Shown here piece after piece: positions 2,378 to 21,503 of a stretch of DNA of 32,926 bases. Made by a program: the position numbers and the translations under genes. Numbering within the stretch: the first letter of the stretch is position 1; every line of letters starts with the position of its first letter. The notes under the pieces were generated by a model. That model was given only the letters and a program-made list of their open reading frames with translations. It had not been told where the DNA came from and ran no database searches. Where the stretch lies: positions 1 through 32,926 of the forward strand of contig JAUNGZ010000015.1 of the NCBI GenBank assembly GCA_030524205.1. The letters run 5' to 3'. Source of the DNA: Eubacteriales bacterium (lineage in GTDB: Bacteria; Bacillota; Clostridia; Oscillospirales; Butyricicoccaceae).

Positions 2378-3835
2378 ATGTGTGGAATCGGCGGCTTTGT
2401 CGATTATGAACGCGACGCGCGGCAGTATGGGCCGGTCGCGCAGCGCATGAAACGCACGCTCACGCCGCGCGGCCCGGACGCCGAAGGCGAATTCTGTGAT
2501 CTCGACGCGATGCTCGTCCACCGCCGCCTGATCGTCATCGACCCGGACGGCGGCAAGCAGCCCATGTATTCGCCTGATGGTAATACAGTTCTTATTTATA
2601 ATGGAGAGTTGTATAACACCGAGGATATTCGGAGCGACCTGCTCGCGCGCGGGCATCATTTTGAAGGACATTCGGACACCGAGGTGCTGCTGCACGCCTT
2701 TCTGGAATGGGGAACGGACGCGTTCCCCCGGCTCAACGGTATTTTCGCGTTTGCCATTTGGCAGAAGGCCGAGCGGCGGCTCATCCTGTGCCGCGACCGG
2801 CTGGGCGTAAAGCCGCTGTTCGTCTCGCAGACGGGCGGCGGACTGGTGTTCGGTTCGACCATCGGCACAGTGCTGTGCCATCCGGACGTCGAACCGGTCG
2901 TCGACGCGGACGGTCTGCGTTCGCTGCTGCTGCTGGGGCCGGCGCGTCCGCCCGCGTCGGGCGTGTTCAAGCGGATCGACGCGCTGCTGCCCGGCCATTA
3001 CGCCATCCTCACCCCCGACCGCTATATAGACCGCACCTATTGGAAGCTCGAAGCGCACGAACACGGGGACGATCTCCAAGCGACCATTGCGCGCACGCAC
3101 GAGCTGATCTGCGACGCGGCGCGGCGGCAGCTGGTTTCCGACGTGCCGCTTTCGTGCTTCCTGTCCGGCGGTCTGGATTCGTCCATCCTGTCCATGCTCG
3201 CGGCAAAGGACTACGCCGCGCGCGGCGAAACGCTGCACACCTGGTCGGTCGACTACCGCGACAACGACAAATATTTTACTAAAAGTAATTTCCAGCCAAA
3301 TAGCGACAATGAGTATATTAAAATGATGTCCGATGCGCTGGGCACCGCGCACCACAACGTGCTGATTGAGCCGGAGGCGCTGTGCGCGGCCCTGCTGCCC
3401 GCGACCGACGCGCGCAACCTGCCCGGCATGGCCGACGTCGACTCCTCGCTGCTGCTGTTCTGCGCCGAGGTCAAAAAGGGCGCGACCGTCTGCCTGTCGG
3501 GCGAGTGCGCGGACGAGATCTTCGGCGGCTATCCATGGTACCACCGCGAGGAGATCCTGTTCGAGGACACCTTCCCCTGGTCGCGGTCGGTCGATCTGCG
3601 GCTCGGGCTTTTAGCCCCCGGCGTGGTGGAAAACGGCGCGGAATTTGTGCGCGAGCACTATCTCGCCACCTGCCGCCGCGCGGAAAAGCTGCCCTCGGAC
3701 AGCAAAAAGGACGCGCGGATGCGCGAAATGTTCGTGCTCAACCTCGACTGGTTTATGGCGACGCTTCTCGAACGAAGGGCCGCAAAAGCATATGGAGAAA
3801 GGAGATCGGCATGCGCGCAGACGAACAGCCGCTGA
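2378..3835 (+). CDS. asnB: Asparagine synthetase (glutamine-hydrolysing), 5' part; gene interrupted by an inserted element
   Basis: Residues 1-464 are a normal class-II asparagine synthetase. Cys2 in MCGIGGF is the glutaminase nucleophile, RGPDAEG follows near residue 32, and YNGELYN and GHSDTEVLLHAF complete the amidotransferase domain. The synthetase domain has the ATP-binding SGGLDSS loop at residue 263 and SGECADEIFGGYPWY near residue 375. After MATLL (to residue 464) the reading frame enters foreign sequence and adds 21 unrelated residues before a stop at 3833-3835. The last 144 codons of a normal AsnB (about 610 residues) are missing here. They are found in frame at 21069-21503. The truncated protein lacks the C-terminal end of the synthetase domain and is probably inactive for synthesis. 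Start: ATG with AAAGGAGG upstream. Confidence 0.93.
   Translation: MCGIGGFVDYERDARQYGPVAQRMKRTLTPRGPDAEGEFCDLDAMLVHRRLIVIDPDGGKQPMYSPDGNTVLIYNGELYNTEDIRSDLLARGHHFEGHSDTEVLLHAFLEWGTDAFPRLNGIFAFAIWQKAERRLILCRDRLGVKPLFVSQTGGGLVFGSTIGTVLCHPDVEPVVDADGLRSLLLLGPARPPASGVFKRIDALLPGHYAILTPDRYIDRTYWKLEAHEHGDDLQATIARTHELICDAARRQLVSDVPLSCFLSGGLDSSILSMLAAKDYAARGETLHTWSVDYRDNDKYFTKSNFQPNSDNEYIKMMSDALGTAHHNVLIEPEALCAALLPATDARNLPGMADVDSSLLLFCAEVKKGATVCLSGECADEIFGGYPWYHREEILFEDTFPWSRSVDLRLGLLAPGVVENGAEFVREHYLATCRRAEKLPSDSKKDARMREMFVLNLDWFMATLLERRAAKAYGERRSACAQTNSR
3753..3788. other. attL: left junction of the element inside asnB, GA core at 3770-3771
   Basis: To the left of 3770 is asnB coding sequence; to the right the AsnB frame loses all family similarity. 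The junction ACGCTTCTCGAACGAAGGG (3761-3779) matches the right junction (21060-21078) at 14 of 19 positions. The shared trinucleotide CGA contains the proposed GA crossover core. The element-side arm (3772-3788) ends in GCAAAAG, the complement of CTTTTGC at the other element end. Confidence 0.8.
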
Positions 3836-3930
3836 CCGTCCTTGTGCGGTACGTCGCGGACGGCTCGCCCGCGCAGGTCAAGGCCGATATCCTCGCGGCC
3901 TGTCCGCCAAATACGCGGGAACAGCCCTGA
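3811..3930 (+). CDS. 39-residue conserved-looking small ORF between attL and the recombinase; possible directionality factor
   Basis: An ATG preceded by GAAAGGAGATCGGC opens a 39-codon frame ending at the TGA at 3928-3930. The product starts MRADEQPLTVLVRYVADG and is hydrophilic, with no membrane segment. It lies 23 bp upstream of the recombinase GTG and in the same transcriptional direction, so the two are probably translated from one message. Recombination directionality factors of large serine recombinases are often small proteins encoded near the recombinase, and this is a reasonable candidate on position alone. I recognise no domain. It could also be a leader peptide that tunes recombinase translation. 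Confidence 0.55.
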   Translation: MRADEQPLTVLVRYVADGSPAQVKADILAACPPNTREQP

Positions 3931-3953
3931 GCCGTTGAAAGGAGGCGCTTGCC

Positions 3954-5495
3954 GTGACCGCGATTTACGCGCGGCAGTCGGTCGACCGGCCGGACAGCAT
4001 TTCCATCGAAACGCAGCTCGAGCGCTGCCGCGAGAGCCTGACCGCCAAGGAGCTTGCGGACTGCCGCGCCTACATCGACCGCGGCTTTTCGGGCAAAAAC
4101 ACCGACCGGCCCGCCTTCCAGCGCCTGCTGGCCGACCTGCGCGCGGGCGGGATCGACCGGATCGCGGTCTACAAGCTCGACCGCGTCAGCCGCAGCGTGC
4201 ACGATTTCGCCGGGCTGTGCGATCTGCTGCGCGAGCGGCGCGTCGCCTTCCGCTCGTGCGAGGACGGGCTGACGCTCGACGACACCCCGGCCGGCACGGC
4301 GATGGCGCAGATCATGATGGTGTTCGCCCAGTTCGAGCGCGAAACCATCCAGCGCCGCGTGACCGACAACTACTATGAGCGCGCCAAGACGGGCATGTAT
4401 CTGGGCGGGCGGCCGCCCTTCGGCTTTTCCAAGGGACAGACGCTGGTCGGCGGGCGCAAAACCGCGTGCTACGTGCCCGACGAAGCGCAGGCCGCCGTCG
4501 TCCGCGCGCTGTACGACCGCTATCTGGAAGCGGACGTCTCGCTCGGCACGCTGATGCGCTGGCTCAACGATGAAATGCGCCTGCCGACCGGCCGCGGCGG
4601 CACATGGAGCACCGTGCAGCTCGGGCGGCTGCTGCACAGCCCCGCCTATGTGCGCGCGGACGCGGCGGTTTACCGCTATCTGCGCGGCAAGGGCGCGATA
4701 CCGACCGACCCCGCCGAGGCCTACGCCGGCACGCACGGCTGCTACCTCTACGCCGGCCGCGCCGGACGCACGCGGAGCAAGTTCGCCGCGCCGGCGGGCG
4801 CGTTCCTGTCCCTCGCCCCGCACGAGGGGCTGGTCGGGGCTGAAATTTGGCTGCGCGCCCAGCACAAGCTGGACGCGGGCAAGGCGCTCAAAAACAGCGG
4901 GCGCGGCTCGCACAGCTGGCTGTCCGGGCTGATGAAGTGCGCCCACTGCGGCTACGCGGTCACGGTCGTCGCCGCGCCGGGGGGCGCGGGGCATTACATC
5001 AACTGCGGCGGCCGCAAAAAGGGGCGGGCGATCTGCCCCGGCCGCACGCGCGTGACCACGCTTGAAGAGATCGAGGCCGCCGCCGCGCCCGCCCTGCTCG
5101 CGTACCTCGAAGGGCTGTCCGGCGTGGCGCTTCCCGCGCCCGCGCGCGACCGCGCCGCGCACAACCGGCTCGAAGCGCAAATCGCCGCCGCCGAGCAGGA
5201 GCTGGACCGGCTGACCCGCAACCTGTCGCTCGTCGAGCAGGCGGACGTGGTGCGCCTGCTCGCGGAGAAAGCGCACGAAACGCAGGCCGCGCTGGATCGT
5301 CTGCGGGACGAACAGCGCGCGCTGGATGCGGCGGCTGCGGCCAAGGCCGCGCCGCCGCTCGACGATGTGGCGCGGCGCTGGCCGCGTTTTTCCCTTGAGG
5401 AGAAAAAGCATATCGCCCGCGCCGCGCTCAGCCGCGTCGTCGTCGGGGACGGCACGGTCGAGCTGGTATTCCGCGCGCCGCCCGGCGGGCAATGA
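3954..5495 (+). CDS. Large serine recombinase (TnpX/TndX-like site-specific integrase)
   Basis: This 513-residue protein has the resolvase/invertase catalytic domain first: YARQS with the nucleophilic serine at residue 9, then DRGFSGKNTDRPAFQRLL, YKLDRVSRS near residue 75, and FERETIQRRV near residue 132. Next is the recombinase DNA-binding domain (RPPFGF onward, about residues 157-300). A zinc ribbon follows with CAHCG at 329-333 and two more cysteines near 350 and 359, then a coiled coil at about 400-465. This order is diagnostic of large serine integrases, although the protein is shorter than TnpX (about 700 residues). The start is a GTG with AAAGGAGG ten bases upstream. It is expected to recombine attL and attR at the asnB junctions. 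No promoter is visible between attL and this gene, so transcription may come from asnB. Confidence 0.95.
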   Translation: MTAIYARQSVDRPDSISIETQLERCRESLTAKELADCRAYIDRGFSGKNTDRPAFQRLLADLRAGGIDRIAVYKLDRVSRSVHDFAGLCDLLRERRVAFRSCEDGLTLDDTPAGTAMAQIMMVFAQFERETIQRRVTDNYYERAKTGMYLGGRPPFGFSKGQTLVGGRKTACYVPDEAQAAVVRALYDRYLEADVSLGTLMRWLNDEMRLPTGRGGTWSTVQLGRLLHSPAYVRADAAVYRYLRGKGAIPTDPAEAYAGTHGCYLYAGRAGRTRSKFAAPAGAFLSLAPHEGLVGAEIWLRAQHKLDAGKALKNSGRGSHSWLSGLMKCAHCGYAVTVVAAPGGAGHYINCGGRKKGRAICPGRTRVTTLEEIEAAAAPALLAYLEGLSGVALPAPARDRAAHNRLEAQIAAAEQELDRLTRNLSLVEQADVVRLLAEKAHETQAALDRLRDEQRALDAAAAAKAAPPLDDVARRWPRFSLEEKKHIARAALSRVVVGDGTVELVFRAPPGGQ

Positions 5496-5524
5496 AAAAA
5501 GACGGCTGAAAAGCCGTCTTTTTT
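5495..5524. terminator. Bidirectional terminator between the recombinase and the xdh operon
   Basis: A perfect 13-bp inverted repeat, AAAAAAGACGGCT (5495-5507) and its complement (5512-5524), surrounds a GAAA loop. Runs of A on one side and T on the other serve both converging genes. Confidence 0.9.
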
Positions 5525-6096
5525 CATCGTTCCATGTCCTCGGGCGCGTCCACGTCGTCCAGCTCTCTCGCGCTCGTCGCGGGCACCGCCAGCGGGCGGT
5601 GCCGCGCGGCGACCTCCCGGCCGCCGTGGTCGCTCTCCAGCGCCCGCAGCTCGGGCGCGAGCGCCGCCGCGAACGCCATCGGATTGCCGGCGCGCTCGCC
5701 GAACACCGCGCACGCCGCCGGCACGCCGGGCCGCGCCGCGTCCAGCAGGCGGGAGACGGTCGCCGCCGTCAGCCACGGCTGATCTGCCACGACGAAAACA
5801 AGGAAATCGCCTTCCTCCAGCGCTCCCGCCGCGTCCATACCGGCGCGGATGGTGTAGGACAGGCCCTTTTCGCTCTCCGGGCTGTCCGCCGCCCGCGCGC
5901 CCAAGGCGCGCGCCGCCTCCAAAACCGCCGGATAGCGCGAAACGACGGTCAAATCGCAGTCGTCCCGCGCTTTTACGAGCGCGGCAAGCATGTCCAGCCC
6001 GTGCCGGTACAGCGGCTTGCCGTCCAGCGCGAAGAACAGCTTATTCTCCCCGAAGCGGCGGCTGCTGCCCGCCGCGAGATAAATGATGCGCTTCAT
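5524..6096 (-). CDS. mocA: Molybdenum cofactor cytidylyl/guanylyltransferase (MobA/MocA-like NTP transferase)
   Basis: The product has the NTP-transferase signature at its start, IIYLAAGSSRRFGENKL, where the AAGxSxRxG loop binds the nucleotide. It also has VVADQPWL near residue 90 (metal-binding Asp) and NPMAF further on, as in MocA/MobA-like proteins. It would attach CMP or GMP to molybdopterin to form the dinucleotide cofactor of xanthine dehydrogenase. Clostridial and other xanthine-dehydrogenase-family enzymes usually take the cytosine form, but the nucleotide cannot be read here. The ATG at 6096 sits 7 bases after GGGGAG; a second ATG at 6102 and a TTG at 6111 are alternatives. The gene overlaps the 3' end of xdhA by about 56 bp in another frame, which implies tight coupling. 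Confidence 0.86.
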   Translation of the reverse strand: MKRIIYLAAGSSRRFGENKLFFALDGKPLYRHGLDMLAALVKARDDCDLTVVSRYPAVLEAARALGARAADSPESEKGLSYTIRAGMDAAGALEEGDFLVFVVADQPWLTAATVSRLLDAARPGVPAACAVFGERAGNPMAFAAALAPELRALESDHGGREVAARHRPLAVPATSARELDDVDAPEDMER

Positions 6097-8383
6097 GTTC
6101 ATGCTCCCCAAAGAGGATTTTTTCCGGTGTGATCGGCAGCGTCCGGTGCCACACGCCGGTCGCGTTGTAAATCGCGTGCGCGATGGCGGGCGCGGGCGTG
6201 TTGATCACGATTTCCCCGATGCTTTTCGCGCCGAACGGCCCGGTCGGCTCGTAGCTTGATTCGAACGCGACGCGCAGGCATCCCACGTCCAGCCGCGTCG
6301 GGATCTTATATTCCATCAGCGAGCTTTCCGCGATGCGGCCGTTTTGGTCGTAGGTGACGTCCTCGTACAGCGCCATGCCGATGCCCTGCGCCAGCCCGCC
6401 CTCGATCTGCACGCGGGCAAGGCCCGGGTTGACCGGCGTGCCGCAGTCGACCACGGCGACGTAGTCGAGCAGCTCGACCGAGCCGGTCTCCTTGTCCACC
6501 TCCAGCTCGCACATGCCGACCATAAACGGCGGCGGCGAAATGGGCGAGGTGTGGGACGCGGTCGTCTGCGCCGCGACCTGATTGCCGCACATCGACTTGG
6601 CCGCCAGCTCCATGCGCGTGACCGCCGCGCTGCCGTCGAGCCTGCGCACGCCCGCGCCCGTGTACTCCACCTCGTCCGCGCCGCAGCCGAGCAGGCCCGC
6701 GCCGATCTCGCACAGCTTGTCCCGCAGCTCTCCGCAGGCTTTTTCGACCGCCTTGCCGGTCACATAGGTCGTCGAGGAGGCGTAGGAGCCGGAATCGTAG
6801 GGCGACGCGTCCGAATCCGCGCCGAACACCGCGATTTCGTCCACCGAACAGTCGAGGCATTCGGCGGCCATCTGCGCCAGGATCGTGTCGCAGCCCGTGC
6901 CCATGTCGGCCGCGCCGATCGTAAGATTAAAGAAGCCCTCGTCGCTCAGCTTGATCGTGGCCGAGCCAACGTCGACCCCGGAGATGCCCGAGCCCTGCAT
7001 GGCCATCGCCACGCCGACCGCGCGCACCCTGCCGCCCCCCATATCGCGGCAGGGGTATTTTTCGTCCCAGCCGATCATCTCCTTGGCGCGCGCCATGCAG
7101 CGGTCGAGCGCGCAGGCGTTTGCCGGCTCGTTATAGTAGGCGGGCATGGTCTGCCCCTCGCGCACCATGTTCTTTTCGCGCACGGCCACCGGGTCGAGCC
7201 CCAGACGCGCCGCCAGCTCGTTCACCGCGGACTCGACCGCGAAGATGCCCTGCGTCGCGCCGTAGCCGCGGTACGCGCCCGCCGCCTGCAGGTTCGTGTA
7301 CACCACGTCGTAGGAAAAGCGGAACGCCTCGAGATTAGTATTATACAAGGGGATGGATTTATGCCCCGACAGGCCGACGGTCGTCGGCCCGTGCTCGCCG
7401 AACGCACCCGTGTTCGACAGCGTGTACACGTCGATCGCGCGGATCGTGCCGTCCTTCATCGCGCCCAGCCGGACGGACACCTTCATTTCGTGCCGCGGCG
7501 AGCCGGCGGTCTGGCATTCCTCCCGCGAATAGACCATTTTGGCGGGTTTTCCCGTTTTCCACGTGACGAGCGCCGGGTACACCTCGGCCACGACCGTCTG
7601 CTTGGCGCCGAAGCCGCCGCCAATGCGCGGCTTTTCCACGTGGATCTTCGACTTCGGGATATCGAGCGCGTTGGCCAGAATGCGCCGCACATGGAACACG
7701 ATCTGGGTGGAGGAAACCACGTGCAGGCGGCCGTACGCGTCGATCTCGGTGTAGGTGCGGAAGGTCTCCATCATGGCCTGCTGGCAGGCCTTGGTGTGGT
7801 AGGTGTGCGCGACCACCTCGTCGCACGAGGCGAGCACCGCGTCCACGTCGCCGTCCGCGCAGGCATCCGACGCGCACAGGTTGCGCTTATTGTCCGCGCC
7901 GACCGGGCAGAGCGCGCGCCAGTCGTCCTCCGGATGCACGAGCACCGGATTGTCCTTGGCCGTGTCCATGTCGAGCACGGGCGCGAGCACCCGGTACCGC
8001 ACCTTGATAAGCTTCATCGCCCGGTCGACCGCCTGTTCGGTTTCGCCCGCGACGACGGCGACCGCGTCGCCCACAAAGCGCACGCGCCGATCCAAAATCA
8101 GCCGGTCGTAGGGCGAGGGCTCGGGAAAGGTCTGCCCGGCCATGGTGAAGCGCTTTTGCGGCACGTCCGCATAGGTGTACACGCATTCGATGCCGGGCAC
8201 TTTTTTTGCGGTTTCGGTTTGGATGTCCTCAATCAGCGCATGCGCATGCGGCGAGCGCAGCACCTTGACGACGAGCGCGTCCCTCGGCGTTACGTCGTCC
8301 GTATAGGCGGGCTTGCCGAGCAGAAGCTGCATCGCGTCCTTCTTGCGCACGGGCTTGCCGACCGTTTTAAAATTCCGTTCCAT
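6041..8383 (-). CDS. xdhA: Xanthine dehydrogenase, molybdopterin-binding large subunit
   Basis: This 780-residue protein matches the molybdenum-binding subunit of the xanthine oxidase family. It opens with the a/b hammerhead domain (GKPAYTDDV, LRSPHAHA, then RFVGDAVAVVAGET). The molybdopterin-binding region follows: KPRIGGGFGAKQ near residue 252, AAGAYRGYGATQ near 370, and a C-terminal GPFGAKSIGEIVINTP, whose Glu in the GE pair is the expected catalytic base. It should hydroxylate hypoxanthine and/or xanthine towards uric acid. Some clostridial homologues carry a labile selenium at the active site; none of the selenium genes is in the window. Start: ATG with AGGAGG nine bases upstream and 4 bp after xdhC. 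Related purine or nicotinate hydroxylases are possible, but the purine permease and xpt nearby favour xanthine. Confidence 0.93.
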   Translation of the reverse strand: MERNFKTVGKPVRKKDAMQLLLGKPAYTDDVTPRDALVVKVLRSPHAHALIEDIQTETAKKVPGIECVYTYADVPQKRFTMAGQTFPEPSPYDRLILDRRVRFVGDAVAVVAGETEQAVDRAMKLIKVRYRVLAPVLDMDTAKDNPVLVHPEDDWRALCPVGADNKRNLCASDACADGDVDAVLASCDEVVAHTYHTKACQQAMMETFRTYTEIDAYGRLHVVSSTQIVFHVRRILANALDIPKSKIHVEKPRIGGGFGAKQTVVAEVYPALVTWKTGKPAKMVYSREECQTAGSPRHEMKVSVRLGAMKDGTIRAIDVYTLSNTGAFGEHGPTTVGLSGHKSIPLYNTNLEAFRFSYDVVYTNLQAAGAYRGYGATQGIFAVESAVNELAARLGLDPVAVREKNMVREGQTMPAYYNEPANACALDRCMARAKEMIGWDEKYPCRDMGGGRVRAVGVAMAMQGSGISGVDVGSATIKLSDEGFFNLTIGAADMGTGCDTILAQMAAECLDCSVDEIAVFGADSDASPYDSGSYASSTTYVTGKAVEKACGELRDKLCEIGAGLLGCGADEVEYTGAGVRRLDGSAAVTRMELAAKSMCGNQVAAQTTASHTSPISPPPFMVGMCELEVDKETGSVELLDYVAVVDCGTPVNPGLARVQIEGGLAQGIGMALYEDVTYDQNGRIAESSLMEYKIPTRLDVGCLRVAFESSYEPTGPFGAKSIGEIVINTPAPAIAHAIYNATGVWHRTLPITPEKILFGEHEHEAHHLSRGGQQPPLRGE

Positions 8384-8387
8384 GCCG

Positions 8388-8846
8388 TCAGCCCTCCTTT
8401 TTGCGGTCCAGATAGGCGCGGATGCCGCGAAGCTGTCCCTCGTAGCCCGAGCAGCGGCACAGATTGCCCGCGAGATAGGCGCGGATCTCGTCGTCCGTCG
8501 GGTCGGGGTTCTCGCGCAGCAGCGCGATGGTGTTCATCACAAAGCCGGGATTGCAGAAGCCGCACTGCTCCGCGCCCTGATCGGCGATAAAGCCGACAAA
8601 ATCCGCGGCCTCGTCCTGTAACCCCTCGAGCGTCTGCACCGCACGCCCGTCCGCCCGCGCGGCGAGCACCGAGCAGGACAGCACGGGCGTGCCGTCGAGC
8701 AGCACGGTACACAGGCCGCAGTTTGCGGTCTCGCACCCGCGCTTGACCGAGCGGCAGCCGTGCTCGCGCACAAAATCGAGCAGCAGCGTGTCCGCACGGA
8801 CGGACGCGGCAAGCGGCTTTCCGTTGAGCGTCAGCTTGATTTCCAT
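8388..8846 (-). CDS. xdhC: Xanthine dehydrogenase, [2Fe-2S] small subunit
   Basis: The 152-residue product is the two-cluster ferredoxin-like subunit. The N-terminal plant-type cluster is bound by cysteines in GCETANCGLC and a downstream LSCSV. The C-terminal cluster uses QCGFCNPGF and NLCRCSGY. These clusters pass electrons from the molybdenum centre to FAD in XdhB. The ATG at 8846, starting MEIKLTLNGKP, lies 2 bp after the xdhB stop. A GGAGG motif inside the end of xdhB serves as its ribosome binding site. A longer upstream frame exists but adds 17 residues foreign to the family. Confidence 0.95.
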   Translation of the reverse strand: MEIKLTLNGKPLAASVRADTLLLDFVREHGCRSVKRGCETANCGLCTVLLDGTPVLSCSVLAARADGRAVQTLEGLQDEAADFVGFIADQGAEQCGFCNPGFVMNTIALLRENPDPTDDEIRAYLAGNLCRCSGYEGQLRGIRAYLDRKKEG

Positions 8847-8848
8847 AT

Positions 8849-9640
8849 TCAGCCCTCCTCCAGCGCGAGCGCCGCGCGGCGCACCAATACCTTGCAAATT
8901 TCGCGGCGGTAGTCCGCCCCCGCGCGGCGGTTGCCGCCGAACGCGCAGCGGGACGCGATATCGTCCGCGAACGCGCGGGCGCTCTCCTCGGTAATCCCGT
9001 TTGCCAGCAGACCCTTTTCATCCCCGAACGCCGCGGCCGGCATCGGCCGCGCGCCGACCGCGCAGGTGTAAGCGCCCTCCCGCGCGCACAGCGCGCAGGT
9101 CAGCACGGGAAAATCGGTCGAAGCGTTGCGCTGCGACAGGTAAACGGCCTTGACCGGCGCTTTCGGCACAGTCACCCGCACCAGAATGTCGCGCGTCGTG
9201 CGCGGCAGCGCGAGAAAGTCCGCAAGCGCCAGCTCGCCCGCGCGGTGCAGCTCGACCGTCGCGCCGAGGGCGAGGAACAGCGTCAGCACGTCGGAAAAGC
9301 CGAAGCGCCCGTACAGGCTGCCGCCGACGGTGGCGCAGTTGCGAAACTGCACGCCGACGATATGGCGGACGCTGTCCGCCGCCGCGCCCCGCGTCAGCGC
9401 GTTCAGCCCCTCGTGCGTTTCCAGCGCGCGCAGCGGGACCATCGCGCCGATGCGGTACGCCGTTTCCGTCTCCTCGATGCGGTCCAGTCCCAAATCGCAC
9501 AAATCCACCGCCGTGCCGACAGTTCTGCGCTGCATTTTCAGCCACAGCATGCCGCCCAGCACAGCGGTGCTTTTCTTTTGGCACAGTTCGTATGCCTCGT
9601 CCAGACTTTTCGCTCGGATATATTGATTGATCGAAAGCAT
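8849..9640 (-). CDS. xdhB: Xanthine dehydrogenase, FAD-binding subunit
   Basis: This 263-residue protein belongs to the CO dehydrogenase flavoprotein family. It shows the AVLGGMLWL flavin loop near residue 30, IGAMVPLRALE, and the strong HIVGVQFRNCATVGGSLYGR motif near residue 110 that contacts FAD. The C-terminal third carries the CO_deh_flav_C-like region ending CKVLVRRA. It takes electrons from the iron-sulfur subunit and passes them to an acceptor such as NAD+. The second ATG (9640) is chosen because it lies nine bases after GGAGG, while the first (9649) touches it. It is the first gene of the xdhB-xdhC-xdhA-mocA operon. Confidence 0.92.
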   Translation of the reverse strand: MLSINQYIRAKSLDEAYELCQKKSTAVLGGMLWLKMQRRTVGTAVDLCDLGLDRIEETETAYRIGAMVPLRALETHEGLNALTRGAAADSVRHIVGVQFRNCATVGGSLYGRFGFSDVLTLFLALGATVELHRAGELALADFLALPRTTRDILVRVTVPKAPVKAVYLSQRNASTDFPVLTCALCAREGAYTCAVGARPMPAAAFGDEKGLLANGITEESARAFADDIASRCAFGGNRRAGADYRREICKVLVRRAALALEEG

Positions 9641-9663
9641 TTTTGCCATCCTCCGGTCCGTTG

Positions 9664-13938: not shown

Positions 13939-14938
13939 AGCGCCCTCCCTTCCCCCGGCACAGCAGCAGCGCCAGCACGGGCACGGCGAACAGGATGGTC
14001 AGGATACTGAGCGGCAGCTCAGCGCCCTTCGACAGGCTGCGCGCCAGCATGTCCGCCGCGAGCAGGATATCCGCGCCGACCAGCGCGCACAGCGCGAGAT
14101 ACGGCCCGCCGCGCCGCCGCGCCAGCAAAAACGCGATATGCGGGGCGATCAGCCCCGCGAACGCGATCACGCCGGTCACGGACACGACCGCCGCGACCAT
14201 CAGCGTAGTCAGCACGAGCAGCAGCGTGCGCCAGAACGCGGGGTCGAGCCCCATGCCGCGCGCGGCCTCCTCGCCGAGCGACAGCATGGCGGTCTGCCGC
14301 CGGAACAGCAGCAGAAGAAGGAGCGGCGCGAGCACGCACAGCGCGGTCAGGCGCGCCTTGTCCGCTGTCACCGACGCGAGGCTGCCCATCGTCCAAAACT
14401 CGATGGCGGCCAGCTCGCGCTCGGGATCGGCCATGGTTTTCAGCACCATCAGCCCCGCCTCGGCCGCCGACGAGACGATGATACCCGCGAGGATGTACGT
14501 GCCCGTCCGCTCGATGCGCGCCGCGCGCACCAGCAGCAGCACAAGGGCGAGCGACAGCAGCCCCATCGCAAACGCGCCGCCCATGATCTGCGCCGCGCCG
14601 CCCGCGCCCAGCACAATGGCGCACGCCGCGCCGAACGACGCGCCCGCGGCCACGCCCGTCAAATCGGGTGAGGCGAGCGGATTGCGGAACACGGTCTGGT
14701 ACACGCCGCCCGCAAGGCCGAGCGCCAAACCGGCGAGCAGGCCCATGCACACGCGCGGCACGCGCAGCGTCCAAAATACGCGCGCGTCCATCGTATCCCG
14801 CGCGCCGCCGGCGAGGATTTCCCCGATCCGGGCAAGCGAAAGGGGAAAGCTGCCGACGCACAGCGACACCGCCGCGAGCGCCGCCAGCAGGACGGCGGCC
14901 GCCGGAACGGCGGCGCGGGAACGGTTCGTCTGTCTCAT
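13922..14938 (-). CDS. FecCD/BtuC-family ABC transporter permease
   Basis: This 338-residue protein has about ten hydrophobic segments and the diagnostic family stretch GLAGGVYQTVFRNPLASP near residue 80, followed by LTGVAAGASFG. The cytoplasmic ATPase-contact loop (MGLDPAFWRTL) lies near residue 229. It forms the membrane channel of the importer with the ATPase just downstream. The ATG has a G-rich ribosome binding site (AAGGGGGGAAAG), and the gene starts 19 bp after the binding protein ends. Confidence 0.9.
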   Translation of the reverse strand: MRQTNRSRAAVPAAAVLLAALAAVSLCVGSFPLSLARIGEILAGGARDTMDARVFWTLRVPRVCMGLLAGLALGLAGGVYQTVFRNPLASPDLTGVAAGASFGAACAIVLGAGGAAQIMGGAFAMGLLSLALVLLLVRAARIERTGTYILAGIIVSSAAEAGLMVLKTMADPERELAAIEFWTMGSLASVTADKARLTALCVLAPLLLLLLFRRQTAMLSLGEEAARGMGLDPAFWRTLLLVLTTLMVAAVVSVTGVIAFAGLIAPHIAFLLARRRGGPYLALCALVGADILLAADMLARSLSKGAELPLSILTILFAVPVLALLLCRGKGGRYGDDA

Positions 14939-14957
14939 CGGGCTTTCCCCCCTTCCG

Positions 14958-16016
14958 TTACTTTGTGATCAGCGCGCGGTCGATGTCAAAGCCGTAAAAC
15001 GTCTGATAAAACGCTTGAGCGTCGGCTGTGAACTCGTCAAAGCTGTACTGCCCCGGGTGGAGCACGCTCGTCAGCCACATCACGCCCAAAACACCGGACG
15101 GGATGGGCGAATCCCATTCCTCGATGCCACGCGGCATCTCATAGATGTTTCCATGCACGACCGCGCCCACCCCGGCAAGCTGCGGGTCGTTGCGCACATC
15201 GTTTGCCGTATAGGAAGCACCGGGCGGCACGATGATATATTCCGGGTCCATCGCGAGGACGGATTCGTAGGACACCTCGGTCCAGTAATCGCCCTCGATC
15301 GCGTTTGCCGCGTTCTCGCCGCCTGCCAGCCCGATCAGCCCCGCCTGATACATGCCCGCGGGCGCGGTTTCCAAGTAGGACGAGTTGCCCGCCATATAAA
15401 CGGCGGGCTTTTCCAGCCCCTCGGTCAGCTCCGCCATGCGGGCGAGCTGCGCGGCGTAATAGTCGGACAGCTCCCGCGCGCGCGGCTCCACGCCGCAGGC
15501 CTTGCCGATCAGCGCGAGCATCTGCTCCAGCCCCTGCTGCGTTTCCGGATCGACGACCAGCGCCTTGAGGCCGAGTCCGGTCAACGTGTCGGCATGCTCT
15601 GCGAGCTTTTTGGGCAGCAGCACCAAATCGGGCGCGAGCGCGGCCACGGCCTCGACGTTGAATTCCTTAAGCGTGCCGACCTGCTCCCGTTCGAGCAGGC
15701 CGGGCGCGGCCATTTGATAAATCGGGCGCGTTTCCGCCTTCTTTTCCAGCCCGATCACACGGTCGGCCACGCCGAGCGCGATCGCCGCGTAGGTGGTGAT
15801 ATAATAGCAGCTCACCAGCGTTTCAGCGGGCTTATCCAGCACGACCTCGCGCCCCGCCTGATCGGTCAGCGTGATTTCTTCGGCCTGCGCGGCCGTATTT
15901 TGGCCGTCCTCCGCCCCGTTCTCCCCGGCTTGGGGCTGCCCGCAGGCGCCCAGCCCCAGCGCCATCGACGCCGCCAGCAGCAGCGCGAGCAGACGTTTCA
16001 CTCCGTTTTTTCTCAT
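14958..16016 (-). CDS. Substrate-binding lipoprotein of a BtuCD-type ABC importer, probably for molybdate
   Basis: The 352-residue product has a lipoprotein signal (MRKNGVKRLLALLLAASM then the lipobox LGAC, with Cys at about residue 25). A Ser/Gly/Glu-rich linker follows, then a periplasmic-binding-protein fold of the TroA/BtuF type: ITLTDQAGREVVLDKPAETL, VAALAPDLVLLP, and a C-terminal lobe with DPEYIIVPPG. It would be anchored outside the membrane and deliver substrate to the FecCD permease. The ATG at 16016 is preferred over the one 8 codons upstream because of GGAAAGAGGGAG before it and the signal peptide. Molybdate is inferred from the ModE-like operator and cargo, not from binding residues. 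Confidence 0.88.
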   Translation of the reverse strand: MRKNGVKRLLALLLAASMALGLGACGQPQAGENGAEDGQNTAAQAEEITLTDQAGREVVLDKPAETLVSCYYITTYAAIALGVADRVIGLEKKAETRPIYQMAAPGLLEREQVGTLKEFNVEAVAALAPDLVLLPKKLAEHADTLTGLGLKALVVDPETQQGLEQMLALIGKACGVEPRARELSDYYAAQLARMAELTEGLEKPAVYMAGNSSYLETAPAGMYQAGLIGLAGGENAANAIEGDYWTEVSYESVLAMDPEYIIVPPGASYTANDVRNDPQLAGVGAVVHGNIYEMPRGIEEWDSPIPSGVLGVMWLTSVLHPGQYSFDEFTADAQAFYQTFYGFDIDRALITK

Positions 16017-16051
16017 GTTGCTCCCTCTTTCCAGTTGCATTGGTAACCGGT

Positions 16052-16084: not shown

Positions 16085-16115
16085 AAAAATATTCCCGTTT
16101 TCACGGGAAATATTT
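16085..16115 (-). terminator. Terminator at the end of the ModE-like gene
   Basis: The minus strand forms a hairpin AATATTTCCCGT / ACGGGAATATT with a GAAA-containing loop and one bulge, followed by seven T. The stem includes the last codons and the stop of the gene. Confidence 0.8.
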
Positions 16116-16436
16116 GTGGAACGCCCCTTCCGCCGCCTGTTCGACCTCGGCCAGCAGGCTCTCGTACCGTTCGAGCAGAGCGAGGCCCTCCTCCGTCAGC
16201 GTCGAGCCGCCGCCCTTCGCCCCGCCGGGACGGCGCACGAGCAGTTGAAAGCCCCACGCCTGCTCCAAGCCGCGAATCAGCTTCCACGCCTTGGAATAGG
16301 CCATGCCCATGCTCCCGGCGGCTTTTTGCAGCGAGCCGGTCTCGCGCACGCCCTCGAGCAGGCGCATCGGCCCGGGGCCGAAGCATTTGTCCGCCGCAAG
16401 CAGCCGCAGCGTCAAATGATACCGCAGCCCGTCCAT
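16101..16436 (-). CDS. ModE-like winged-helix regulator, DNA-binding domain only
   Basis: This 111-residue protein corresponds to the N-terminal LysR-type helix-turn-helix domain of ModE. GPGPMRLLEGVRETGSLQ runs into KAAGSMGMAYSKAWKLIRGL (the recognition region, about residues 37-56), followed by PGGAKGGGSTLTEEG, the wing with the G-rich turn typical of ModE. The molybdate-binding Mop domains of full-length ModE (about 260 residues) are absent. It may therefore sense molybdate through a partner or bind it by other means. The ATG at 16436 overlaps the xpt stop by one base (TGATG), so the two genes are translationally coupled. Its probable target is the CGATATTCT palindrome just downstream of the gene. 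Confidence 0.85.
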   Translation of the reverse strand: MDGLRYHLTLRLLAADKCFGPGPMRLLEGVRETGSLQKAAGSMGMAYSKAWKLIRGLEQAWGFQLLVRRPGGAKGGGSTLTEEGLALLERYESLLAEVEQAAEGAFHKYFP

Positions 16437-17014
16437 CAGTCTCGGAACGTGACGGTCTGCGTCTCCGCGTCCATCCCGTCCACGATGGCGAGCGATTCGA
16501 CGCGCAGCCCCTTTTCGCGCAGCATTTTGCCGCCGCACTGGAAGCCCTTTTCGATCACGATGCCGATGCCTGCGACGGACGCGTGCGCGGCCTCGACAAT
16601 CTGGCACAGTCCCATCGCCGCGCAGCCGTTGGCCATAAAATCGTCGATGATCAGCACGTTTTCGTCCGGCTGGACAAAGCGGCTGGCCACGATAACCTCG
16701 TACTTGCGCTTGTGCGTGAAGGATTCCACCGGCGCGGACAGCATCGTGCCGTCCAAATTGATCGACTGCGCCTTTTTGGCGAATACGACCGGCACGCCGA
16801 AATACTGCGCCGCGATGGCCGCGATGCCGATACCCGAAGCCTCGATGGTCAGGATTTTGTCTACCCGCACGTCGGCAAAGCGGCGCTTGAACTCCCTGCC
16901 GATTTCGTTGAACAGGGCGATGTCCATCTGGTGGTTGAGGAAATTGTCCACCTTCAGGACGTTGCCCTCCTTGATGACGCCGTCCTTGCGAATGCGTTCT
17001 TTAAGCAGTTCCAT
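16436..17014 (-). CDS. xpt: Xanthine phosphoribosyltransferase
   Basis: The 192-residue protein matches Xpt in length and sequence. [20 protein letters not shown] opens it, [10 protein letters not shown] follows, and the PRPP-binding loop is [17 protein letters not shown] (about residues 115-131). It converts xanthine and PRPP to XMP and so competes with xanthine dehydrogenase for the same base: salvage against breakdown. The ATG at 17014 (after AGAAGGATC) is preferred over the one 8 codons upstream. The leader is short (about 86 bp to the next gene) and has no purine riboswitch, unlike Bacillus xpt. Coupling with the ModE-like gene links purine salvage to molybdenum control. Confidence 0.94.
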
Positions 17015-17100
17015 GATCCTTCTCTTCCTTGTCCCCATAATATCTTATTTAAAAGCATACCATTTTTCGGGCGCGGTGTACACCTTTTTTCGACGTTTTT

Positions 17101-17607
17101 TCACGTCCCGTCCAAGAATTCCCGCAATTTTTCGCGCGCGGCCGCACGCGGGATTTCGTCCAGATCGAGCAGCAGTCCGTCCCGTCGGGCGCGAAAGCGC
17201 GCGATGTGAGGCATTTCCTCCTTTTTGAGCACGGCGATCACGGTCTTTTCGCTGTCGAGCGCGGCCGTCACCGCCTCGAGAAACGCCGGGCTGCTTTGCT
17301 CGAAGCGGCCGATCTCGTCGAACAGCAGCACGGGCGCGTCCGACCCGAGCGCCGCGCGCACGCACGCCGCGCCGAAGCCGTCGAACGTCTCCGGAACGCC
17401 GCGTATGCCGCCGCCGGCAAGGCGGGAAATCGGCGCGCTCTCTCCGGTCAGCAGGTCGGTCATGCGGTAAAGGGGACCGGCGGGCGTTATTTCGTCCCGC
17501 ACGGTGCGGTAACCCGCGCACGGCCGGCCGAGCCGGCCGATCAGCCAATCGGCAAGCGTCGATTTGCCCGCGCCCCGCGCGCCGGTGATCAAAATATTGC
17601 GCTTCAT
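17101..17607 (-). CDS. Small P-loop NTPase (THEP1/NTPase_1-like)
   Basis: The 168-residue product has Walker A GARGAGKST at residues 8-16 and Walker B VLLFDEIGRFE near residue 92. This arrangement and size match the nucleoside-triphosphatase THEP1 family. THEP1-like NTPases of this kind turn up beside molybdenum hydroxylase genes in clostridia, where their role is not settled. It may serve cofactor insertion or nucleotide clean-up. The ATG at 17607, starting MKRNILITG, follows GGAGGAATGAACGG. A longer frame upstream adds 24 unrelated residues. Directly upstream is a TATACT at 17641-17646 without a good -35 and two GTATAC hexamers 24 bp apart. Confidence 0.78.
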   Translation of the reverse strand: MKRNILITGARGAGKSTLADWLIGRLGRPCAGYRTVRDEITPAGPLYRMTDLLTGESAPISRLAGGGIRGVPETFDGFGAACVRAALGSDAPVLLFDEIGRFEQSSPAFLEAVTAALDSEKTVIAVLKKEEMPHIARFRARRDGLLLDLDEIPRAAAREKLREFLDGT

Positions 17608-17721
17608 CCGTTCATTCCTCCCGCTCCTCCGCGTATGCTTAGTATACCATTCCATATGCCTCTTTGTATACCTGCACAAAATTGGGTATGTTATTTTCTA
17701 ATATAGTTTTTCAATAAGGAA

Positions 17722-17750
17722 TTGACTACCTTTTCCAGAAGTGTTATTGT
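17722..17750 (+). promoter_or_regulatory. Possible promoter of the acyl-CoA dehydrogenase/fprA pair
   Basis: TTGACT (17722-17727) and a weaker TATTGT (17745-17750) are 17 bp apart, about 125 bp before the gene. The leader contains a CCCGC...GCGGG hairpin with a short T tail (17785-17808), which could act as an attenuator. Confidence 0.45.
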
Positions 17751-17875
17751 GAAGAAAAGAGATTGATTCCGTATATTTTATATTCCCGCCCGGACAAAAG
17801 CGGGTTTCCTTCCGCTTCAAAAGTACACTTTATCAATCCAGTATCGGTCATACCGACAAGAAGGAGGCACACCGT

Positions 17876-19771
17876 ATGTATTACCAAACCACCGACCAGC
17901 ACGAAAAGCTGCGCGCCGACATCCGCGCCTTCGCGGAAGCCGAAGTAAAGCCGATCGCCTTCCTGCTGGACAAGGAAAACCGGTTCCCGCGCGAAATCGT
18001 GCAGAAAATGGCTGAAAACGGCTGGATGGGCCTGCCCTTCCCGACGGAATACGGCGGCGCGGGCGCGGATATCACCAGCTACGCGATCGCGGTCGAGGAG
18101 CTGTCCCGCGTCGACGGCGGCGTGGGCGTTATCCTGTCCGCGCACGTTTCGCTCGGCTCGTGGCCGATTTTCGCCTTCGGCAGCGAGGAGCAGAAGCAGA
18201 AATACCTGCCGTCGCTCGCCCGCGGCGAAAAGCTCGCGGCCTTCGGCCTGACCGAGCCGAACGCCGGCTCGGACGCGGGCGGCACCGAGACGACCGCCGA
18301 GGACAAGGGCGACTATTATCTGCTCAACGGCAATAAAATTTTCATCACCAACGGCGGCGAGGCCGACACCTACGTCGTGTTCGCAGTCACCACGCCCGGC
18401 GTCGGCACGCGCGGCATCTCGGCCTTTATCGTCGAAAAGGGCTGGGAGGGCTTCACCTTCGGCGACCATTACGACAAGCTGGGCATCCGCTCGTCGGCAA
18501 CCGCCGAGCTGCTGTTCAACGACGTCAAGGTTCCCAAGGAAAACCTGCTCGGCAAGCTGGGCGAGGGCTTCAAGATCGCCATGGCCACGCTCGACGGCGG
18601 CCGTATCGGCATCGCCTCTCAGGCGCTCGGCATCGCGCAGGGCGCGTTTGAATCCGCGCTCGAATACGCCAAGGAGCGCGAGCAGTTCGGCAAGCCGATC
18701 GCGTTCCAGCAGGCGATCTCCTTTAAATTCGCCGATATGGCGACCAAGCTGCGCGCCTCGCGCCTGCTGATCTACTCGGCGGCCGAGCTCAAGGAGCACC
18801 ACGGGCCCTACTCGATGGAGGCCGCGATGGCCAAGCAGTACGCTTCGGACTGCTGCCTCGAGATCGTAAACGACGCCTTGCAGATTTACGGCGGCAACGG
18901 CTACCTCAAGGGCATGGACGTCGAGCGCTTCTACCGCGACGCCAAGATCACCACGATCTACGAGGGCACGAACGAGATCCAGCGCGTCGTCATCGCCGCG
19001 CACATCATCGGCAAGCCGCCCCGCGAAAACGCCCCCGCGGCCAAGCGCGGCCCGATCACCGGCCACCGCAAAAAGCAGGTGCTGAAGGACGGCAGCGCGC
19101 AGGAGCGCGTCGCCGCGCTGGTCGAGGCGCTTAAGAACGACGGGTACGACTTCACTGTCGGCATCCCGCTCGACACGCCGATCACGCAGGCCGAGCGCGT
19201 TGTTTCCGCCGGCAAGGGCATCGGCGAAAAGGAAAACATGAAGCTGATCGAGGCCCTCGCCGTGCAGGCGGGCGCGGCTATCGGCTCGTCCCGCCCGGTG
19301 GCGGAAACCTTGCAGTACGTGCCGCTCAACCGCTATGTCGGCATGTCCGGCCAGAAGTTCTCGGGCAACCTGTACATCGCCTGCGGCATTTCGGGCGCGG
19401 GCCAGCACCTCAAGGGCATCCGCGAGGCCACGACCATCGTCGCCATCAACAACAACCCGAACGCCCCCATTTTCAAGAACTGCGACTACGGCATCGTCGG
19501 CGACCTGATGGAGATCCTGCCGCTGCTGACCGCCGCGCTCGACAACGGCGAGGCCAAGCTGCCCGCGCCGCCGATGAAGAAGATGCCGCGTCCCAAGCCG
19601 CAGAAGCCCCATTATCCGATCCATGTCTGCGGCGGCTGCGGTTACGAATACAACCCCGCCGTCGGCGACCCCGAGGGCGATATCGCGCCCGGCACCTCGT
19701 TCGACAAGCTGCCCGAGGAGTGGATCTGCCCCGAGTGCGGCGAGGGAAAAGACCAATTCATTCAGGCCTAA
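17876..19771 (+). CDS. Acyl-CoA dehydrogenase / EtfA C-terminal domain / rubredoxin fusion protein
   Basis: This 631-residue protein joins three redox modules. Residues 1-385 are an acyl-CoA dehydrogenase ([16 protein letters not shown]; catalytic Glu in [12 protein letters not shown]). Residues about 415-555 are the FAD-binding C-terminal domain of EtfA ([47 protein letters not shown]). Residues about 580-631 are a rubredoxin (CGGCGYEYN and CPECG, four iron-binding Cys). Electrons from acyl-CoA oxidation could pass through the two flavins to rubredoxin. The next gene encodes FprA, a known rubredoxin partner that reduces O2. No EtfB-like or EtfA N-terminal part is present, so it cannot bifurcate like normal EtfAB. 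Start: ATG after AAGGAGGCACACCGT. The encoded substrate is unknown; butyryl-CoA is likely. Confidence 0.93.
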
Positions 19772-19789
19772 GATAAAGGAGGAACTACC

Positions 19790-20998
19790 ATGTACTCTGT
19801 CCGCAAGGTGACGAAAGACCTGTACTGGGTCGGCGCGAACGACCGCAGGCTCACCCTTTTTGAAAATATCCATCCCATCCCGCGCGGCGTTTCCTACAAC
19901 TCCTACCTGCTGACCGACGAAAAAACCGCGCTGTTCGACACGGTCGACTGGTCGGCCTGCCGCCAGTTTCTCGAAAACGTCGAGCATGTGCTGGACGGCC
20001 GCCCGCTCGATTACCTTGTCATCAACCACATGGAGCCCGACCACGGCGCATCCATCGAGGAGGTGCTGCTGCGCCACCCCGAAACCATGGTCATCTCGAC
20101 CGAAAAGGCCTTCATGCTCATGCGCCAGTTCGGCTTCGACGTTTCCGGCCGCATGATCGAGGTTAAGGAGGGCGACACGTATTCCTTCGGCAAGCACGTG
20201 GTCACCTTCGTGGCCGCGCCCATGGTGCACTGGCCCGAGGCCATGGTCACGTTTGACACGACAAACGGCGTTTTGTTCTCGGCGGACGCTTTCGGCTCGT
20301 TCGGCGCGCTCGACGGCCAGCTTTTCGCGGACGAGGTCAACTTCGACCGCGACTGGCTGGACGACGCCCGCCGCTACCTGACCAACATCGTCGGCAAATA
20401 CGGCCCGCACATCCAGCTTCTGCTGAAAAAGGCGGGCGGCATCCTCGACCAGATCAAGTTCATCTGCCCGCTGCACGGGCCGGTCTGGCGCAAGGATCTG
20501 ATGTATTTCATCGACAAGTACGACAAGTGGAGCCGCTACGAGCCGGAGGAGCAGGGCGTGATGATCGTCTACGCCTCGATGTACGGCAACACCGAGGCCG
20601 CCGCGAACGCGCTCGCCGCGAGGCTGTGCGAAAAGGGCATGACCAACGTGCGCCTGTACGACGTTTCAAACACCCACGTGTCCTACCTGATCTCCGAAAC
20701 CTTCCGGCTGAGCCATGTGGTGCTCGCCTCGGTCACCTATAACTTGGGCATTTACCCGGTGATGCACAATTACCTGATGGATATGAAGGCGCTCAATTTG
20801 CAGAAGCGCACCTTCGGCATCGTCGAGAATGGCTCGTGGGCGTGCAAATCGGGCACGCTGATGCGCGAGTTCCTTGAAAACGAGCTCAAGGACATGACCG
20901 TTCTGGACGCCCAGCTTTCGCTGCAAAGCGCGCTGCACAGCGACGCCGCGCCCGACCTCGACGCGATGGCCGACGCAATCCTCGCCTCCATGCACTGA
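19790..20998 (+). CDS. fprA: Flavodiiron protein (FprA-type oxygen reductase)
   Basis: The 402-residue protein has the metallo-beta-lactamase-like diiron domain first (to about residue 245) and then a flavodoxin domain (MIVYASMYGNTEAA near residue 258 binds FMN). The diiron ligand motif HMEPDH is at residues 80-85, with further ligands expected at APMVH, FSADAF and PLHGP. It reduces O2 to water, or NO to N2O, with electrons from rubredoxin. The upstream gene encodes a rubredoxin domain, is 18 bp away, and is probably cotranscribed. Ribosome binding site: AAAGGAGGAACTACC. This protein is soluble and cytoplasmic and protects anaerobes from oxygen. Confidence 0.95.
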   Translation: MYSVRKVTKDLYWVGANDRRLTLFENIHPIPRGVSYNSYLLTDEKTALFDTVDWSACRQFLENVEHVLDGRPLDYLVINHMEPDHGASIEEVLLRHPETMVISTEKAFMLMRQFGFDVSGRMIEVKEGDTYSFGKHVVTFVAAPMVHWPEAMVTFDTTNGVLFSADAFGSFGALDGQLFADEVNFDRDWLDDARRYLTNIVGKYGPHIQLLLKKAGGILDQIKFICPLHGPVWRKDLMYFIDKYDKWSRYEPEEQGVMIVYASMYGNTEAAANALAARLCEKGMTNVRLYDVSNTHVSYLISETFRLSHVVLASVTYNLGIYPVMHNYLMDMKALNLQKRTFGIVENGSWACKSGTLMREFLENELKDMTVLDAQLSLQSALHSDAAPDLDAMADAILASMH

Positions 20999-21020
20999 CC
21001 TCACACAGTGCACCGGACCG

Positions 21021-21051
21021 CCCCCGGAGCTTTGGCTCCGGGGGCTTTTTT
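21021..21051 (+). terminator. Strong terminator at the right end of the element
   Basis: CCCCCGGAGC (21021-21030) pairs with GCTCCGGGGG (21035-21044) around a TTTG loop and is followed by C and six T. It stops fprA transcription only 18 bp before the attR core, so it would insulate attP and the recombinase in an excised circle. Confidence 0.93.
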
Positions 21052-21087
21052 CTTTTGCAACGCTGCGCGACCGCAAGGACCGTATGA
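21052..21087. other. attR: right junction of the element, GA core at 21069-21070
   Basis: The element side ends in CTTTTGC (21052-21058), the complement of GCAAAAG at the left end (3782-3788). From 21069 on the sequence resumes AsnB coding (GAC CGC AAG GAC CGT ATG). Joined to the left arm it forms attP with 12 of 17 arm positions complementary around GA. Confidence 0.8.
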
Positions 21088-21503
21088 GCATGTATTCCGG
21101 TCTTGAGGTGCGCGTGCCGTTCTGCGACCACCGCATCGTGGAATATGCCTACAATATGCCGTGGGCGTTCAAGGCGCTGGGCGGACGGGAAAAGGGCGTC
21201 GTGCGGGAGGCCTTTGCGCACGAGCTGCCCGAGGAGATCGTGCTGCGCAAGAAAAGCCCTTACCCCAAGACCTTCCACCCGGTTTACACCAAGCTGTGCG
21301 CGGATTATGTCCGCCGCATCTTTGCGGACAGCGAATCGGTCGCGGCCTCGCTGTTCGACCACGCGGCCGTCGAGGCGCTGATGGAAAAGCCGGAAAGCCT
21401 GCAGGAACCGTGGTACGGCCAGCTGATGCGCACCCCGCAGATTTTCGCCTATATCGTCCAGCTCGACCGCTGGTTCAAGCAGTACAAGGTGCGGTTGGAA
21501 TAA
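21069..21503 (+). CDS. asnB: Asparagine synthetase, 3' part (separated from its 5' part by the element)
   Basis: These 144 codons encode DRKDRMSMYSGLEVRVPF onward, the highly conserved end of the class-II asparagine synthetase domain, including FCDHRIVEYAYNMPW and RKKSPYPKTFHP. There is no ribosome binding site; the internal ATG at 21084 would give at most a 139-residue fragment without the active sites. The frame at the GA core (codon GAC at 21069) matches the interrupted codon GAA at 3770. Excision of the element therefore restores a 608-codon gene exactly in frame. This is the same gene as that at 2378, not a second copy. Confidence 0.93.
   Translation, partial: DRKDRMSMYSGLEVRVPFCDHRIVEYAYNMPWAFKALGGREKGVVREAFAHELPEEIVLRKKSPYPKTFHPVYTKLCADYVRRIFADSESVAASLFDHAAVEALMEKPESLQEPWYGQLMRTPQIFAYIVQLDRWFKQYKVRLE

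Follow-up and report, generated by a model that had tools for sequence, protein, structure and literature searches.

Why should an asparagine synthetase gene be cut in two by more than 17 kb of other DNA, and what could make it whole again? The question is raised by contig JAUNGZ010000015.1 of an Eubacteriales bacterium (Butyricicoccaceae; assembly GCA_030524205.1), whose 32,926 nucleotides were analysed as a whole and are referred to below as the window. Here the asnB gene is interrupted by an insert of 17,299 bp, such that its two parts lie on the same strand in identical phase:

2378 to 3769, + strand: asnB 5' part, residues 1-464, delimited by the genus alignment; the frame continues to a stop at 3835, and this 485-residue open reading frame (ORF) scores above the cut-off of the asparagine synthase model TIGR01536
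21069 to 21503, + strand: asnB 3' part, the remaining 144 codons and the stop, delimited by the genus alignment; PF00733 matches at 21084-21503

A GA dinucleotide is common to both junctions (3770-3771 and 21069-21070) in the same codon phase, which fits a crossover core, and joining 2378-3769 to 21069-21503 gives a product of 608 residues that reads MATLLDRKDRMSM across the joint without an internal stop. An earlier note on this DNA had described one asnB gene split by a 17.3-kb recombinase element whose excision would restore the frame; the size proves exact, and the frame is restored on paper not only here, as all 13 split genes that can be joined encode 608 or 609 residues. In the window's genome (a 47-contig assembly, 82% complete), we found no further full-length AsnB. 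We argue that the element is probably a skin-like element that intervenes in a sporulation gene, a judgement that concerns the whole family of such elements and overlaps with the possibility, weighed below, that this particular copy is decaying.

The split is not a chance event, since junctions of this kind break the same codon in 16 of the 25 genomes of the genus Agathobaculum (Agathobaculum/Butyricicoccus, the window's own genome included) that we searched with each asnB half. The members of this genus are butyrate-producing gut bacteria. Either part of asnB was found in 24 of the 25 genomes, and nine carry the gene uninterrupted (G004, G006, G008, G009, G017 and G020-G023). Among the 16 genomes with element junctions are 13 with both halves (on separate contigs in G013 and G024) and three partial cases, namely G007 with attL, G011 with attR, and G016 with attL and two 3' halves, which is therefore perhaps a mixed assembly. 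Where both junctions share one contig (11 genomes), the insert measures 10,756-43,555 bp. The split members include isolates, for example A. massiliense Marseille-P4005 and Agathobaculum sp. Marseille-P7918, and A. butyriciproducens DSM 100391 has an intact gene. AsnA was detected in none of the 25 genomes, and no second AsnB was found in them, other Asn_synthase matches reaching at most 26.3 bits. Searching genome contigs for the exact attR pattern (which misses diverged sites such as that of G013) returned 17 stretches, in two of which (L219 and L207) the gene is intact and its attB fits the pattern; across the order the pattern occurs in 8 of 394 genomes, which all belong to this genus and include the intact G008. 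Two further cases are probably split. L210 is hardly independent, because its attR flank is nearly identical to that of G011, whereas L214, from an uncultured Clostridia bacterium, has an AsnB 3' part 70% identical, the 5' part lying outside the 8 kb examined. L210 (a UBA1448 metagenome assembly close to G011) has an in-frame stop early in its asnB 3' part, an error or a sign of decay.

The ends of the element in the window are marked by the following features:

3770 to 3797, + strand: attL, the GA core (3770-3771) followed by the element arm, which pairs with the attR arm at 15 of 26 positions (null mean 6.6, p=0.001); the outer GGATAC is diverged
21043 to 21070, + strand: attR, the element arm (21043-21068, the other arm of the dyad) followed by the GA core (21069-21070)
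21020 to 21045, + strand: terminator-like hairpin reaching into the attR arm, with an 11-nt perfect stem followed by a T run

In every attL listed (15 genomes), host sequence runs up to GA and is followed by the element arm, and in every attR (15 genomes, 16 sequences) the matching inverted arm is followed by GA and host sequence. The arms of the reconstructed attP pair at 15-22 of 26 positions in 13 of 13 cases, against null means of 6.3-7.1 (p<=0.001; the null for G013 derives from a short stretch), and the common arms read GTATCC..GCAACGCTGCGC-GA-..GCGTTGC..GGATAC. Judged by their sequence, the element ends are serine-recombinase att sites with the GA core in a dyad attP. These att features, whose absence from related strains the earlier note had listed as a contrary sign, are clear in the relatives. 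The geometry also bears on whether the two asnB pieces might simply work as two polypeptides without any excision. This idea finds some support in a native AAGGA just before an internal ATG of the 3' part, but the terminator-like hairpin lies just upstream of that part, no promoter was recognised for it (no search aimed at one was made) and the att geometry is exactly in frame in 13 of 13 cases, making such an arrangement highly improbable. An Rfam scan of the window gave no match at gathering scores.

The enzyme expected to act on these sites, together with a small companion, lies just inside the left end, where the earlier note had placed a large serine recombinase:

3811 to 3930, + strand: micro-ORF of 39 residues, a candidate recombination directionality factor, overlapping the end of the asnB 5' frame and without an RIRQGF core
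3954 to 5495, + strand: large serine recombinase of 513 residues, with Resolvase (PF00239), Recombinase (PF07508) and Zn-ribbon (PF13408) domains

Of the 16 split genomes, 14 (among them the window's) have a recombinase orthologue with at least 54% identity, measured in G010 over the first 362 residues; the two without a match, G007 and G024, have contigs that break inside the element. The best match among the nine intact genomes is partial and reaches 49% (G020), so that all nine genomes without a recombinase above this identity have an intact asnB; apart from the broken contigs of G007 and G024, neither a split gene lacking the recombinase nor a second intact AsnB, both of which the earlier note had named as grounds for doubt, came to light. 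Under loose rules, a small ORF with a ribosome-binding-like site could be picked upstream of the recombinase in 14 of 14 loci, 10 of which share the RIRQGF core that is lacking in the window, G013, G010 and G002. By position and size, the micro-ORF is a candidate directionality factor. In G010, the asnB halves and att sites look intact despite a frameshifted recombinase.

The window's copy raises the question of whether this one species harbours a decaying element that relatives still excise and it no longer does, a proposal compatible with a skin-like role for the family. Its dyad match of 15/26 is the lowest of the set (tied with G001), the outer hexamers of its att arms are lost, the terminator-like hairpin extends into the attR arm and its micro-ORF is one of four among 14 that lack the RIRQGF core. 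The recombinase is nevertheless full length, both asnB parts are constrained relative to G013 (0.093 and 0.068), and G013 itself shares the recombinase clade and a diverged micro-ORF, yet has good att arms. We therefore consider decay of this copy rather unlikely.

If the split gene were never rejoined, its parts should bear the traces. Median ratios of nonsynonymous to synonymous differences (pN/pS) are 0.19 between split genes (78 pairs), 0.217 between intact genes (36 pairs) and 0.212 for mixed pairs (117). Substitution-rate ratios (dN/dS) were computed on 14 chosen pairs (nine split-split, three intact-intact and two mixed), giving 0.037-0.106 for the 5' part and 0.014-0.134 for the 3' part in split-split pairs, and 0.096-0.231 and 0.031-0.212, respectively, in intact-intact pairs. 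Both asnB halves, as judged from these ratios, remain under purifying selection, and as the constraint on split genes is like that on intact ones, it is not as expected of a gene that is never rejoined; elements may have moved between species, however, so not all asnB divergence need date from the split state. The asnB tree requires four changes between the split and intact states, and we rejected strict vertical inheritance of the element because recombinase and asnB distances agree only in part (r = 0.52). Two genomes with intact asnB, G006 and G023, are nested among split species in this tree. In G006, the cargo lies outside asnB (L241, G006:C11, 8397-17791) as a circular permutation of the G005 element, its right end joined to its left end and with neither recombinase operon nor att core, and asnB elsewhere is scarless; in G023 the cargo is likewise elsewhere, its left part inverted. 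These arrangements suggest precise excision during evolution and are not proof of regulated excision.

The same data address the view that the element is an ordinary serine-recombinase genomic island for which asnB is just the integration site, excised rarely when the island moves, with asnB simply off in carriers. Such an island would accord with the variation of the elements in cargo and in size, and with the partly incongruent recombinase and asnB trees, which suggest transfer between species. It is harder to square with the undecayed state of 13 of 13 joinable split genes, whose parts are both constrained as in intact genes, and no conjugation or phage structural gene was found among the cargo proteins scanned, the cargo having been scanned in part. 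On balance, an ordinary island is an unlikely explanation.

When, then, would the gene be needed? The region upstream of asnB points to sporulation:

2313 to 2341, + strand: sigma-E-like promoter of asnB, GCATATC-N14-CATACAAA, its -10 starting 44 nt before the ATG

A CATA-type -35 and a CATA -10 stand exactly 14 nt apart in all 23 genomes with a visible asnB start, with the -10 beginning 42-50 nt before the ATG whether the gene is split or intact. None of 408 other upstream regions in the loci analysed contains NNATANN-N14-CATA (2 of 408 do so at 13-15 nt spacing), and in a score-based scan most asnB sites (13.1-26.1) stand out from 391 background regions, the best of which scored 16.5. A strict genome-wide version of the pattern found three sites in the 3.2-Mb genome of G012, the asnB site being one of them, and the more distant intact asnB of L207 (69% identical) has GCATAGT-N14-CATATAGA upstream. 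We call these sites sigma-E-like after the consensus KMATATT / CATACAMT, which we take to be that of sigma-E; a literature search for those letters found nothing. A block like TTTTGTAATCA at approximately 2283-2293 of the window, upstream of the -35, recurs with variants across the asnB alignment and is possibly an activator site. As promoter control we used spoIIIAA in place of spoIVA: scanning whole loci on both strands revealed the same layout at 14 nt spacing in 17 of 25 genomes and at 13-16 nt in 22 of 25, and anchoring at guessed start codons recovered the motif in 13 of 24 loci. In C. difficile, spoIIIAA is described as being under sigma-E control (PMC5025042). The asnO gene of B. subtilis is reported to be controlled by sigma-E, SpoIIID and sigma-K (PMC517825), and its inactivation is said, with reference to other work, to be asporogenous (PMC12575378), so that sporulation is already known to require an asparagine synthetase in the mother cell. 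Among the 25 genomes, SpoIVA was detected in 20, and a SpoIIIAA-like protein and a sigma-K/E-like factor in all, both below the cut-offs of those models. Just downstream of asnB (window 22525-23955) lies a gene for a protein with SpoIID-like and peptidoglycan-binding domains, homologues of which follow asnB in relatives too, another hint of a sporulation neighbourhood.

Mother-cell expression of asnB is thus predicted from a sigma-E-like promoter found in 23 of 23 genomes, with a layout that is shared with spoIIIAA and was not seen in the stretch scanned at spoIVA, and the sigma-E-like site favours a role of asnB in the mother cell during sporulation over a switch of prototrophy in vegetative cells. 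The earlier note had proposed a genetic switch of asparagine synthesis: its in-frame restoration stands, and the vegetative purpose gives way to the sporulation reading, which is better supported. A related scheme is a phase switch, in which growing cells would excise the element to gain asparagine synthesis and re-integrate it to lose it. It could draw on the reversibility of serine recombinases that have a directionality factor, described for CD1231 and CD1234 (PMC5025042), and on AsnB being the only asparagine synthetase found. The sigma-E-like promoter, however, predicts little vegetative expression in either state, and vegetative excision would presumably put the metabolic cargo at risk; we regard a phase switch as improbable.

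How the recombinase might be expressed is suggested by the arrangement of its operon. Among the 13 elements with asnB 5' sequence and recombinase on one contig, the small ORF begins 28-129 nt past the crossover in four (28 in G013, 41 in G000, 54 in G019 and 129 in G001). These close-set ORFs, belonging to the window and three relatives, are on the asnB strand and have no promoter-like match of their own. In the window, there is no terminator-like site on the + strand between 3769 and 3954; two weak stems lie within the asnB coding sequence, and the whole region has six terminator-like sites versus 3.7 expected. With the recombinase operon directly behind the asnB 5' part and no promoter match of its own, the asnB promoter may therefore drive the recombinase. 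Elsewhere, G010 has a sigma-E-like site 29 nt upstream of its small ORF that scores above all 391 background regions, and G018 has a weaker one (top 5%).

Under the sporulation reading, the large serine recombinase would recombine attL with attR at the GA core, releasing a circle and restoring asnB; the micro-ORF product would probably act as directionality factor. Sigma-E would switch on the asnB promoter in the mother cell, and in the window and the three relatives the promoter of the interrupted gene may at the same time drive its repair enzyme, the recombinase. With asnB restored, the mother cell would make AsnB for spore formation, and the forespore would retain the element with its vegetative catabolic genes. 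A bolder version, which we offer tentatively as possible rather than probable, is a self-triggering developmental excision: the recombinase operon would sit behind the sigma-E promoter of the interrupted asnB, the induction of asnB in the mother cell would make its own repair enzyme, and the locus would be where the genus stores vegetative catabolic modules (for xanthine, ethanolamine and sugar), dropped only in the cell that is to die.

Several observations weigh against the sporulation reading. No excised form was seen, and the attP pattern found no match in viral contigs. The reading presupposes spore formation in the genus, and the window's assembly has no SpoIVA match. The spoIVA control was without a sigma-E-like motif in the stretch scanned, where spoIVA appears to follow another coding sequence, and the weakest asnB site (13.1) does not stand out from a background that reaches 16.5. 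Only two of the 14 recombinase operons have a clear sigma-E-like site; of the other 12, four lie directly behind the asnB 5' part, an arrangement that does not account for the remaining eight. The recombinase of G010 (G010:C1, approximately 3720000) is frameshifted in a one-contig assembly, be this real or an error; the att arms and micro-ORF of the window are among the more diverged of the set; and the partial conflict between recombinase and asnB trees means that some insertions may be recent.

Between the recombinase and attR, the window's element carries the following genes:

5524 to 6111, - strand: MocA/PucB-like molybdenum cofactor NTP transferase (PF12804; below NCBIfam cut-offs)
6041 to 8383, - strand: xanthine dehydrogenase molybdenum subunit, XdhA-like (best model NF043082, below its cut-off)
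8388 to 8846, - strand: [2Fe-2S] subunit (PF01799, PF00111)
8849 to 9640, - strand: FAD-binding subunit (PF00941 on 8849-9649)
9814 to 10248, + strand: MarR-family regulator (PF12802)
10241 to 11569, + strand: MATE exporter (PF01554 on 10133-11569)
11620 to 13044, - strand: xanthine/nucleobase permease (PF00860; TIGR03173 below cut-off)
13135 to 16001, - strand: ABC importer with ATPase, FecCD permease and periplasmic binding protein (domain matches)
16101 to 16436, - strand: LysR-type helix-turn-helix protein (PF00126 on 16101-16607)
16436 to 17014, - strand: xanthine phosphoribosyltransferase (TIGR01744 and NF006671, above cut-off)
17101 to 17607, - strand: NTPase (PF03266 on 17101-17679)
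17876 to 19771, + strand: fusion of acyl-CoA dehydrogenase, electron transfer flavoprotein (ETF)-alpha and rubredoxin (domain matches)
19790 to 20998, + strand: A-type flavoprotein (ODP beta-lactamase fold and flavodoxin)

The XdhA-like, [2Fe-2S] and FAD-binding subunits, the MocA-like protein, the permease and the xanthine phosphoribosyltransferase make up a xanthine module. The element carries the molybdenum subunit in 11 genomes, counting a fragment in G016, and a further 11 genomes have it elsewhere; G024 has a match of only 32%. We rejected xanthine dehydrogenase as a trait of carriers alone, as a subunit with at least 66% identity occurs in 21 of 25 genomes, intact ones included, in 11 of them away from asnB. 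The fusion protein beside the A-type flavoprotein (17876-20998) looks like an oxygen- or nitric oxide-reducing pair, with homologues on the G010 and G024 elements. Other elements differ in content: that of G012 (A. massiliense) has an ethanolamine microcompartment operon and a TRAP transporter, that of G018 a sugar importer and a GH4 hydrolase, that of G015 cyclic-di-GMP enzymes, that of G010 EutH and others, and that of G002 a subtilase with S-layer domains and regulators. The cargo of relatives was scanned as a sample of its genes. No phage structural or replication gene was found in the window cargo by Pfam or, for 10 window proteins, by PHROGs, in which the recombinase hit integrase/invertase families, five proteins hit families of unknown function and four had no hit; nor were relaxase or type IV secretion genes found in the scanned window cargo or among 30 cargo proteins sampled from six relatives.

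Should the sporulation reading hold, the short list of sporulation genes known to be reassembled by excision of DNA would gain an enzyme gene and a gut genus, and asparagine supply would be linked to spore building outside Bacillus. Intervening elements would here carry ordinary metabolism instead of phage genes, genus-wide and with natural intact and split species for comparison. Genome surveys could miscall these bacteria asparagine auxotrophs with a broken asnB.

Among known systems, the fdxN element of Anabaena (XisF) has the named NCBIfam model that comes closest to the recombinase, with a score far under the cut-off, in a comparison that covers the recombinase only; this element is excised by a serine recombinase in a terminal cell type, heterocysts rather than spores. 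The likeness to skin and SPbeta that the earlier note had drawn holds up for a site-specific element with in-frame restoration. Skin in sigK (C. difficile CD1231/CD1234; B. subtilis spoIVCA) likewise carries its large serine recombinase within the interrupting element; it splits a mother-cell gene, as asnB is predicted to be, and uses a small protein as directionality factor, for which the asnB element has a candidate only; CD1234 is described as a 72-residue protein itself under sigma-E and SpoIIID (PMC5025042). The asnB element differs in targeting a metabolic enzyme gene and in carrying metabolic, not prophage-like, cargo, and whereas the C. difficile recombinase is described as constitutive (PMC5025042), that of the asnB element may use the promoter of the interrupted gene. 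The gin element in gerE of B. cereus (girC, girX) is also reported as non-phage, with a serine recombinase, an additional factor and an inverted repeat around a dinucleotide as att (PMC5595907), but it lies in a regulator gene of a Bacillus, not in asnB across a Clostridia genus with catabolic cargo. SPbeta/spsM, vfbin/spoVFB, vrin/spoVR and yin/yabG resemble the asnB element in its proposed role, in that mother-cell or sporulation genes are restored by excision; they are described as prophages or as having phage-related genes, and asnB is not among the targets named in the excerpted text of these sources (PMC4191935, PMC6957869, PMC10747680). No asnB intervening element turned up in the literature searched, and we regard as new, relative to these known elements, the target gene, the metabolic non-phage cargo, the genus-wide occurrence and, in part, the placement of the recombinase behind the gene that is interrupted.

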